From contig QXJR01000021.1 in NCBI GenBank assembly GCA_020975725.1, positions 310,001 to 374,000 on the forward strand: a DNA stretch of 64,000 nucleotides, given 5' to 3'. Within the stretch, counting starts at the first letter, position 1. Every line of letters begins with the position of its first letter. Below are positions 28,200 through 64,000 of this stretch, piece by piece. A model generated the notes under the pieces. It was given only the letters and a program-made list of their open reading frames with translations, was not told the origin of the DNA and ran no database searches. The stretch comes from Picocystis sp. L7. Taxonomy: Eukaryota > Chlorophyta > Picocystophyceae > Picocystales > Picocystaceae. Position numbers and translations under genes: made by a program.

Positions 28200-28991
28200 A
28201 TGCGAGCCGCAACGGTGCCTGCGGCCGTGGCTTCGCCCACCACCAGGCGCAGGAACGAAGCCACAGGGACGACTGCACCGGTTCCGCAGCACGTGGCGGT
28301 CATCATGGACGGAAACAGAAGGTGGGCATCCACCAGAGGGCTCCCCTCCGCAGCAGGACACCGTGCAGGAGCACAAGCACTCCGACACGCCGTCGAATCC
28401 TGCGCCAAAAACGGTGTCGCCGCCCTCACCGTGTTCGCGTTCTCGTCCGAAAACTGGAGGAGGGATCCCAACGAAGTCAAGGCGTTGCTCTCCATGATGG
28501 CTGCAACCTTGCGAAAGGAAGCACCGCGCCTGCGAAGGGAAGGGGTACGCTTGCACGTCGTCGGTTCCAGCCACAGGCTGCCCGTCAAACTGAGAGAAGC
28601 CTTGCAGGAAGCGCAGAGAGAAACCAGAGAAAACGATCGGCTGCTTCTAACCGTGGCCTTGGACTATGGAGGGCGGCAGGAAATCACCGCGGCGGCGAGG
28701 GCAGCGGCGGAGATGGTCCAAAGGGGAGACATCCTGCCCAGCGACATCGATGAAGCACTCCTGGATGCGTTGGTTTGTGCACGAGCAGCTCCAGAAGGTG
28801 CGCAGTACCCGCCCCTCGATTTGCTCGTGCGCACAAGTGGGGAGCAGAGGATCAGCAACTTCATGTTGTGGCATATGGCCTACACGGAACTGTATTTCAC
28901 CAATGTCCTCTGGCCGGACTTTGGACCGAAAGAAATGGACGCAGCACTGCAATACTTCAGGGAGAGGAAGAGAAGGTTTGGCGGGGGCTAG
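28200..28991 (+). CDS. cis-Prenyltransferase (undecaprenyl-diphosphate synthase family), probably plastid
   Basis: A single-exon gene, 263 aa from the ATG at 28200. The N terminus ('MRAATVPAAVASPTTRRR') is short, acid-free and Ala/Thr/Arg-rich, as for plastid targeting. Family motifs are all present: 'HVAVIMDGNRRWA' (catalytic Asp), 'AGHRAGAQALR', 'LTVFAFSSENWRRD', 'LTVALDYGGRQEI' and 'DLLVRTSGEQRISNFMLW'. The enzyme condenses isopentenyl diphosphate into cis-polyprenyl diphosphates: undecaprenyl carrier for peptidoglycan in bacteria, dolichol or plastid polyprenols in plants. Its presence beside MurG 26 kb away is noted in the findings. The frame is also open from 28125. Confidence 0.88.
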   Translation: MRAATVPAAVASPTTRRRNEATGTTAPVPQHVAVIMDGNRRWASTRGLPSAAGHRAGAQALRHAVESCAKNGVAALTVFAFSSENWRRDPNEVKALLSMMAATLRKEAPRLRREGVRLHVVGSSHRLPVKLREALQEAQRETRENDRLLLTVALDYGGRQEITAAARAAAEMVQRGDILPSDIDEALLDALVCARAAPEGAQYPPLDLLVRTSGEQRISNFMLWHMAYTELYFTNVLWPDFGPKEMDAALQYFRERKRRFGGG

Positions 28992-29833
28992 CATTTTTCT
29001 GTGCTGTTTAACGTGGATATCATGAATGCTATTCTGCTCGTTCAGTGGCCTTGCTGCTTGCTTGGGTTCTACTCCAGCAATGGGTGACCACCGCACGCGC
29101 AGCTGGCTTGGAACGAAATTGGCATGGAACCTATACGTTCCCCATCATGTGCATATTGTTTATGTTACACCTCACAAAGCTCGACACGCGTTGTAAATAT
29201 TCCATCGAGGGCTCCTTGGTTGCACCCACGCTTCCGACTTATCCGTCAAAGAGTGGACGGCATCACACATGGACAGATGTCCGTGCACACCTTTTCCTTC
29301 CACCCCATCCCTTGTCCCCGTTCCATCCGTTCTTTGCCCTCCCGAACACGTTCTCCATCCCAAACCAAGCTTCCTTTCTTCAGGTCCATGTCCCCGGTCC
29401 GTCCGTAGGACCCTCCTCCCGAGTTAACCTCGCTCTCCTCGATTAACTCCCAGAGGCTCCATCCTCGTCGGATCGTTTCGTTCGAAATCCGTTTTTCTTG
29501 GAACTGGATGTCTCCCGGGTGGGGGGGAACCCCACTGCGGCCCGATTTACGACCGTGCCCGCTGAGGATCTCCCTGTTTCTTCCATCGATCTCTGCGAGC
29601 GACGCGATAACGCCTCCAGGACCCCGCGTCGCTTCGAACGCACCCGTTCCCCGCAGAGGAGCCCCGTCCTCGCTCGATGTCCTCCTGACAGTGCGTCTGG
29701 ATCCTCTGCGAGCGATGGCACCGAGGGTCGCGTCGGTCCAGGTCCCGTTACCCAGAAAGGCGCGCGAAGGACCTCTCGATTCGCCATTTTTCACGATCGG
29801 AGCTGCGCGTGCTGCGCACGTTTCAGGTCCGAA
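28992..29833. other. Intergenic stretch upstream of beta-tubulin
   Basis: This is the 3' region of the prenyltransferase, which includes a TGTAAAT near 29190, and the promoter and leader of the tubulin gene. No open frame with a recognisable domain is seen. Confidence 0.45.
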
Positions 29834-62838: not shown

Positions 62839-63027
62839 GGTTCACCTTTCCTTCTGCTTCCATCCTCCCCGGGTTCGATCGGGTGGGCCTCGGACTACTC
62901 CTTTCCAATCGAAAGGGGAGTTGGGACGGGTTCGAAAGGGAGATCCGGGTGGGATGCTTCCCGGTGGGATTCACCCTACCAATTGCCGAGGGGAGCCTCC
63001 AGATGGTGTTTTGCTACAGGGTCGGCA
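62839..63027. promoter_or_regulatory. Compact bidirectional promoter, IPMS and beta-lactamase fold gene
   Basis: Only 189 bases separate the two start codons. They contain the dyad CCTTTCCAATCGAAAGG (62900-62916) and TTCGAAAGG (62931-62939). The first differs at one base of 17 from the element upstream of the PRC-barrel gene. All three genes have transit-peptide-like N termini. Confidence 0.5.
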
Positions 63028-64000
63028 ATGGCGGCCTTGGTGCGGCCACCGCGCACCTTTTGGCGCACCTTCTCGCATCGAACGAGTCGGAGGAAAGGAT
63101 GGAGGATCGCTGCTGGAGACGAGGAGAAGGAGGTGGAAGATGATGAACAGGTGGAAGTGGAAGAAGAGGAAGGAGGCGTGCCTTGGAAGAACAAAGAAAT
63201 GCCATGGACCGACGTCGGTTGGAAAGCCAAGGACACCAAAGATCGAGTCCAAGACTTCAAACAAACTCCGTTGTATATGATGAGCGCAAGATCCATCCAA
63301 AGGGTCCGGAAAGAAGCGGACCGACTGGTCGACAGCCTTGCCCAGCTGCTCATCCACAAACGTTGGAAGTGGTTGGTGGACCACCTGATGGCCATGGCGT
63401 CCGCCTACGTACTCGTCTTGATATTTATGGCCACTGCACCCTACCACACACCCGAATTCGTAGCGTACCAATGGCCACAATGCATCGCCACGGAACACTT
63501 CAAGTACAAACTAAAGAACATCCGGATGACGCCGAAATTCAGCAAGTCCGGAAAGCTACCGAGACGTCCCGGGGTCTTGGAAGACCTTATGCAACCCTCT
63601 GCTGTCATGCAACAGGCAAAGAAGGAGATTGAAGACAAACGATACGCTGACCTGAACGGGTCGTTCTTTTTCCTGGAAACCGCCACGGGGGCGTACGTGG
63701 AACATAATAAGGATGTCATGTACTCCGCGGGATCTACCATCAAGCTCCCGATACTGATCGCCTTCTTGCAAGCTGTGGATTCCGGAGAGGTCTCCCTGAC
63801 AGAAAAATTAACAGTCAAAGATGAACTGGTTGGAGCCGGAGCCGGTGGAATGCAATACAAACCACTTGGCACTCAATTCGAGGCCCTTGAAGTTGCCGAC
63901 CAAATGATCGTGGTCAGTGATAACACTGCTACGAATATGATCATCGAACGCCTTGGGGGTATCTTGGCGCTGAATCGAGTGTTCAAGTCGTGGGGGCTAG
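63028..64000 (+). CDS. Class A beta-lactamase/DD-peptidase fold protein, plastid-type, cut by window end
   Basis: An open frame from the ATG at 63028 to the right edge (324 codons seen, no stop). The N terminus ('MAALVRPPRTFWRTFSHRT') is acid-free and Arg/Thr-rich, a transit peptide. An acidic stretch follows, then one membrane helix (about 117-138, 'MAMASAYVLVLIFM'). The serine-hydrolase domain has Ser236-x-x-Lys239 in 'YSAGSTIKLPILIAFLQ' and 'SDN' at 297-299, the first two motifs of class A beta-lactamases and related cyanobacterial hydrolases. The KTG motif would lie beyond the window. It may act on peptidoglycan peptides or be a repurposed hydrolase. The start is supported by the dyad about 110 bases upstream. 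Confidence 0.75.
   Translation, partial: MAALVRPPRTFWRTFSHRTSRRKGWRIAAGDEEKEVEDDEQVEVEEEEGGVPWKNKEMPWTDVGWKAKDTKDRVQDFKQTPLYMMSARSIQRVRKEADRLVDSLAQLLIHKRWKWLVDHLMAMASAYVLVLIFMATAPYHTPEFVAYQWPQCIATEHFKYKLKNIRMTPKFSKSGKLPRRPGVLEDLMQPSAVMQQAKKEIEDKRYADLNGSFFFLETATGAYVEHNKDVMYSAGSTIKLPILIAFLQAVDSGEVSLTEKLTVKDELVGAGAGGMQYKPLGTQFEALEVADQMIVVSDNTATNMIIERLGGILALNRVFKSWGL

Follow-up and report, generated by a model that had tools for sequence, protein, structure and literature searches.

A full plastid peptidoglycan pathway is, as such, already known in green algae: complete pathways are reported in Micromonas pusilla, polar Micromonas and class III and VII prasinophytes (van Baren et al., PMC4815162), Prasinoderma is credited with all ten core enzymes (PMC7455551), and Chloropicon is placed among the likely wall-bearers (MacLeod et al., PMC10784329). 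A review derives most plastid peptidoglycan enzymes from non-cyanobacterial bacteria, with MurA, MraY and a plastid-encoded PBP given as the rare exceptions (PMC8227023). Trimming enzymes at a plastid wall are known from Cyanophora, for which dacB/PBP5, vanY and vanX are reported (PMC6704402). PBP-A of Thermosynechococcus elongatus (TLL2115; PDB 2j7v, 2j8y, 2j9o, 2jbf) is described as a DD-carboxypeptidase and DD-endopeptidase with a strong preference for stem peptides whose D-iso-glutamate is amidated, a discrimination ascribed to Glu96 (PMC11189452). Here we analyse a gene of the PBP-A type that starts at position 63028 of a 64,000-base window of Picocystis sp. L7 (bases 310001-374000 of contig C19; the assembly has 20.5 Mb in 30 contigs). 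We consider it probable that this gene encodes a plastid-targeted PBP-A, derived from the cyanobacterial ancestor of the plastid, in an alga that makes plastid peptidoglycan.

The window is eukaryotic nuclear DNA, because it contains open reading frames (ORFs) with profile matches to tubulin, SART-1, a SET domain, a V-ATPase subunit and GDA1/CD39 phosphatase. Three further genes, for MurG, a UppS-type prenyltransferase and a Beta-lactamase2 protein, are real, with matches far beyond chance. The last of these has a plausible start at 63028, and its ORF leaves the window; its end, fetched from the genome, is at 64419. Its parts are as follows.

63028..64000, + strand, coding on to 64419 outside the window: PBP-A-type serine DD-peptidase gene (protein P0004; L003:3028-4419), 463 amino acids
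63028..63117, + strand: transit-peptide-like leader, residues 1-30, with 0 acidic, 8 basic, 5 Ser/Thr and 4 Ala residues
63367..63435, + strand: probable membrane helix, residues 114-136, a helix in the structure model at middling confidence
63733..63744, + strand: STIK motif with the nucleophile Ser236 and Lys239, read from the sequence
63916..63924, + strand: SDN motif, residues 297-299, read from the sequence

The leader, a single hydrophobic helix (the peak 19-residue hydropathy of the ORF begins at residue 120), SxxK (here STIK) and SDN had all been named in a preliminary description of the window and are present there; KTG lies just beyond the window end. The Pfam profile Beta-lactamase2 matches across the entire domain with 209.2 bits. 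Among the aligned PBP-A homologues SxxK is found in 153 of 153 rows (STIK in 130) and SDN in 152, the exception being P0009 with DDN.

Judged by sequence, motifs and fold, the protein is a PBP-A-type DD-peptidase and not a class A beta-lactamase. It scores 253.5 bits against PBP-A and at most 64.6 bits against class A beta-lactamases, and the NCBIfam class A model gives 109.3 bits, short of its cut-off of 200. The omega loop is short and aligns with PBP-A without gaps over that stretch; residues 329-338 hold no Glu, and Glu166 of the class A enzymes is thus unmatched. The Leu158 column contains Leu in 152 of 153 aligned rows and Met in the other, with Glu elsewhere in those ten omega-loop columns in 52 of 153 rows. 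The structure model has the PBP-A fold, with PBP-A far ahead of class A lactamases in the fold comparison. The overall fold is common to class A enzymes and the algal protein, as are three of their four catalytic elements; the algal protein differs in having no omega-loop Glu. The class A fold enzyme of the preliminary description is in this way sharpened to a PBP-A, and the beta-lactamase reading was rejected on the omega loop without Glu and the low lactamase scores.

In structural alignments with T. elongatus PBP-A the algal protein reaches 43-46% in sequence. Common to both are the fold, the STIK/SDN/KTG set and a short omega loop with Leu. Unlike its counterpart, the algal protein is encoded by a nuclear gene, and its N-terminus carries a leader resembling a transit peptide and an extension that includes a helix; its Gly271 stands where T. 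elongatus has Glu96. That column holds Gly in 144 of 153 rows and Glu in nine, the Mesostigma protein among the nine, so Glu96 is not a defining mark of PBP-A enzymes.

An isopropylmalate-synthase-like ORF (HMGL-like and LeuA_dimer; 60868-62466, - strand) is arranged head to head with the PBP-A gene at a distance of about 500 bases, a layout in which the two may share a promoter region. A second Beta-lactamase2 protein is encoded elsewhere (P0005; L007:1393-2937; C13:485269-486126, - strand; 46 bits). By eye it has STVK, SDN and KIG where KTG is expected; its leader is unlike a transit peptide, and a sequence search of the PDB with E values up to 1 gave no match for it.

The other enzymes of the pathway were searched for over the genome contigs with NCBIfam and Pfam profiles (NCBIfam bits, cut-off in brackets).

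MurA: C5, 529 (392.7)
MurB: C7, 210.5 (144.5)
MurC: C2, 382 (335.1)
MurD: C7, 307.5 (211.95)
MurE: C25, 452.9 (257.3)
MurF: C6, 355 (288.6)
MraY: C6, 282.1 (192.05)
PBP1A family: C6, 521.6 (508.75), with Transgly at 182.2 and Transpeptidase at 107.1
Ddl: C11, two Ddl units in one ORF, TIGR01205 at 229.6 (245.65), below the cut-off

Together with MurG, all ten core enzymes (MurA-G, Ddl, MraY, PBP) are encoded, MurG and Ddl slightly below their NCBIfam cut-offs. The preliminary description had proposed plastid peptidoglycan chemistry, to be abandoned if mraY, murA-F and any transglycosylase were missing from the genome; mraY, murA-F, ddl and the PBP1A transglycosylase were all found. The alga thus matches ten of ten core enzymes of the plastid pathway described for moss, prasinophytes and Prasinoderma (PMC4815162, PMC7455551, PMC9434261), and its PBP-A is missing from the ten-enzyme lists given in those sources. 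Leaders are visible on several pathway ORFs, with none clear on MurG. In a genome search with PF00905 the PBP1A gene was the sole match, no FtsI-specific search being made. In the MurE ORF (L008/L013, C25:227164-227988) one long segment is highly acidic, and the match to the middle domain falls in two stretches. A 691-amino-acid ORF (L027, C1:979708-979890, + strand) has weak ATP-grasp similarity (best NCBIfam score 99.9 against a cut-off of 625; BacD-like 58.9).

An ftsW homologue, which the preliminary description had proposed to look for, turned up as an ftsW-like ORF on contig C30 (L028, C30:60798-61613, - strand); it is cut by the contig end and scores 228.6 bits against a cut-off of 337.5. 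C30 (61,624 bases) reads as the plastid contig: the GC content of its L028 stretch is 0.33, psbA, psaA/psaB, rpo, chlL/chlN/chlB and ndh genes were recognised by eye, and it carries a tRNA-Val with anticodon GAC. For the Picocystis plastid, ftsW, trnV(gac) and ten ndh genes are reported together (Lemieux et al., PMC4194372); the same source gives Nephroselmis astigmatica trnV(gac) with ftsW absent, and Prasinococcus all 11 ndh genes. On C30, ndhK is followed 333 bases on by psbE, with no space for ndhJ at this position (by eye, here only). Taken together, the plastid features point to a Picocystis-like alga (Chlorophyta, Picocystophyceae).

Two enzymes of wall precursor synthesis are encoded in the window itself.

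54267..55667, - strand: MurG, an uninterrupted 466-amino-acid ORF for lipid II synthesis, which has a long insertion and lacks a clear transit peptide
28200..28991, + strand: UppS-type cis-prenyltransferase, likely the lipid-carrier synthase, Pfam Prenyltransf 256.7 bits

MurG has both GT28 Pfam domains above cut-off (N and C, 115.7 and 91.8 bits), and among solved structures it matches three bacterial MurG chains best (139.1, 131.0 and 129.5 bits). The NCBIfam model TIGR01133 gives 236.6 bits against a cut-off of 250.25, its match falling in two stretches that flank the insertion. The identification made in the preliminary description holds on these domains and on five motifs (GGTGGHVYP, GTGGY, GGSLGA, RAGAITCAE, DHQTFNA); its statement that every motif is present goes too far, HEQN of two bacterial MurG being VEPN here. 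The long insertion between the GT28 domains is of low similarity; additional residues occur at this place in P0160 and P0161 too. Among the best 120 of 4624 matches, the three nearest relatives have 98, 71 and 59% identity, the next are bacterial, several of them Salinibacter/Rhodothermota-like, and Selaginella and Chlorokybus (read from the code Chlat1) also appear. This list is consistent with the remark that moss MurG is nearest to the Fibrobacteres-Chlorobi-Bacteroidetes group (PMC9434261). The range first given for eukaryotic MurG (glaucophytes, some prasinophytes, mosses) falls short, MurG of green plants being reported from across Viridiplantae (PMC4815162). A tree was built from 53 of the 120 rows, a 70% identity filter having dropped 67, including P0159. 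In the best tree the five green MurG do not form one clade, and enforcing that grouping is not rejected (p 0.67); with long branches meeting as well, this tree decides nothing.

The prenyltransferase had been described as of undecaprenyl-diphosphate-synthase type, and the uppS model TIGR00055 bears this out (265.8 bits, cut-off 109.55), with UppS type preferred over DHDDS. The protein (PRENYLTRANSFERASE) scores 226.9 bits against the bacterial UppS chain 1jp3, which we take to be from E. coli, and 145.2 against DHDDS chains. One further cis-prenyltransferase, and no more, was found; it lies on C26 and has the opposite preference, with 197.3 bits for DHDDS and 126.7 for the same UppS. The simplest reading of these sequences is a division of labour in which the C26 enzyme would serve dolichol and the window enzyme would make the bacterial-type carrier. 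Alternatively, the window enzyme could make another plastid polyprenol unrelated to the wall: its leader is short, just 23 residues, and chloroplast cis-prenyltransferases with other products match too (chain 8kga, 187.8 bits). This is possible, though we hold it to be the less likely option, given that bacterial UppS is closest and that the DHDDS-type C26 enzyme leaves no alternative carrier candidate among those found.

As to where the PBP-A came from, the homologues with names among the best 120 of 784 belong to cyanobacteria, apart from one from an Actinomycetota metagenome-assembled genome (P0064) and one from a eukaryote, Mesostigma viride (read from the code Mesvir1). A four-sequence profile added no further named eukaryote among its best 120 of 500; with listings of this extent, more eukaryotic members may be hidden. 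The tree, another step suggested in the preliminary description, was built from 69 of 153 aligned rows (P0007 was removed by hand, and 83 rows, including P0008, by an 85% identity filter). It sets P0004, P0009, P0023 and P0027 apart from 65 others, with branch support 99/95. The Gloeomargarita protein is among the 65, outside the algal clade. P0023 has a long branch and odd composition, and it reads LPRRVGALEEL where P0004 has LPRRPGVLEDL; its sequence and its place in the tree are the only grounds for calling it eukaryotic. Cyanobacterial contamination was considered as a source of the gene and rejected: P0008 and P0009 share the N-terminal extension, and ORFs for tubulin, SART-1, a SET-domain protein and a V-ATPase subunit occur in the same window.

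In this unrooted tree a single clade unites a prasinophyte-like alga with the streptophyte Mesostigma, which favours, within the rows sampled, one ancient acquisition, with the plastid ancestor as the simplest source. On balance we lean towards a PBP-A of cyanobacterial descent in the plastid wall machinery of the chlorophyte/streptophyte ancestor that persists in a few lineages as a nuclear-encoded trimming enzyme, anchored in the envelope and sensitive to penicillin. A later gene transfer from a cyanobacterium would agree with the single named eukaryote among the homologues listed, with Gloeomargarita lying outside the algal clade and with the derivation of most plastid wall enzymes from various bacteria in PMC8227023. 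We regard it as unlikely, as the 99/95 clade of the alga and Mesostigma points to a single old event if the alga is a chlorophyte.

If the gene product is a plastid PBP-A, its leader would carry it into the chloroplast, and, from the order of its parts, the single helix would anchor it to the inner membrane of the envelope, leaving its catalytic domain in the intermembrane space, the presumed site of the wall. Ser236, aided by Lys239, SDN and KTG, would attack the D-Ala-D-Ala ends of stem peptides or existing crosslinks; these residues are in place, and the reaction is modelled on T. elongatus PBP-A. The acyl-enzyme so formed would be released by water, which amounts to DD-carboxypeptidase/endopeptidase trimming of a wall presumably built by UppS, MraY, MurG, FtsW and PBP1A. 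In an active site of this anatomy, lacking the omega-loop Glu, penicillin should acylate the enzyme rather than be destroyed fast.

Several points weigh against this picture. The plastid location, the activity and the wall itself are predictions from sequence. Gly271 implies that substrate choice may differ, and the amidation preference is not transferable. Only 15 residues precede the MurG domain, with no clear transit peptide; a look for an upstream transit-peptide exon found none, as the 201 bases that separate the MurG ATG from the stop codon of the preceding gene (sterol-methyltransferase-like) contain no ATG. Given this short N-terminus and the lack of an upstream ATG, plastid import of MurG is unproven; P0160 MurG begins in the same way, and the Selaginella and Chlorokybus MurG have long leaders. 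Finally, the algal-type relative P0009 (64% identity) has DDN and KAG instead of SDN and KTG, so activity may not persist throughout the clade. This relative also speaks for a PBP-A relic without catalysis, acting as a binding or scaffold protein of the plastid envelope, which we find improbable for the protein studied here, as P0004, P0008, P0023 and the Mesostigma protein all retain SxxK, SDN and KTG. A true class A beta-lactamase shielding the plastid wall from environmental penicillins is very hard to credit, with Leu at the key position of an omega loop without Glu, a class A score below the cut-off and PBP-A far ahead in both sequence and predicted fold.

The UppS, MurG and PBP-A genes all lie inside 36 kb with unrelated genes between them, a proximity that the preliminary description had already thought might be chance. 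In 100,000 random placements of 12 peptidoglycan-related genes on the 29 nuclear contigs (lengths partly averaged), 0.2% of draws brought any three of them together within 36 kb, and 5.5% any two within 9 kb (0.14% and 4.6% without UppS). The clustering is weak evidence, because the gene set was chosen after the window had been seen and unrelated genes intervene, and it may be chance. Also in the window is a Peptidase_S8 (subtilase-family) ORF at 43156-45048 (+ strand, 133.6 bits).

Trimming enzymes at plastid walls are known from Cyanophora; its DD-carboxypeptidases (dacB/PBP5, vanY) do the same kind of job and belong to families other than the algal PBP-A, going by PMC6704402. In the algal genome no S13 carboxypeptidase was found by a search that matched 8 of 14 control genomes and did not extend to S11 and class C enzymes. 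The PBP-A type appears to be new in this place: no plastid PBP-A was described in the titles and abstract openings searched, a search that most subscription journals fall outside. The 2024 PBP-A paper (PMC11189452) contains no occurrence of chloroplast, plastid, plant, alga or eukaryot, and three plastid-wall papers none of lactamase.

If true, the reading adds a eukaryotic branch to PBP-A, which of all PBP families most resembles the class A beta-lactamases. Being nuclear and clearly akin to cyanobacterial enzymes, it would stand beside MurA, MraY and the plastid-encoded PBP as another exception, in the remodelling step. For the green plastid wall it is a candidate DD-peptidase, a step missing from the ten-enzyme list, in a small genome whose pathway can be listed; alongside PBP1A it is also a possible second penicillin target to bear in mind when interpreting how beta-lactams affect plastid division.
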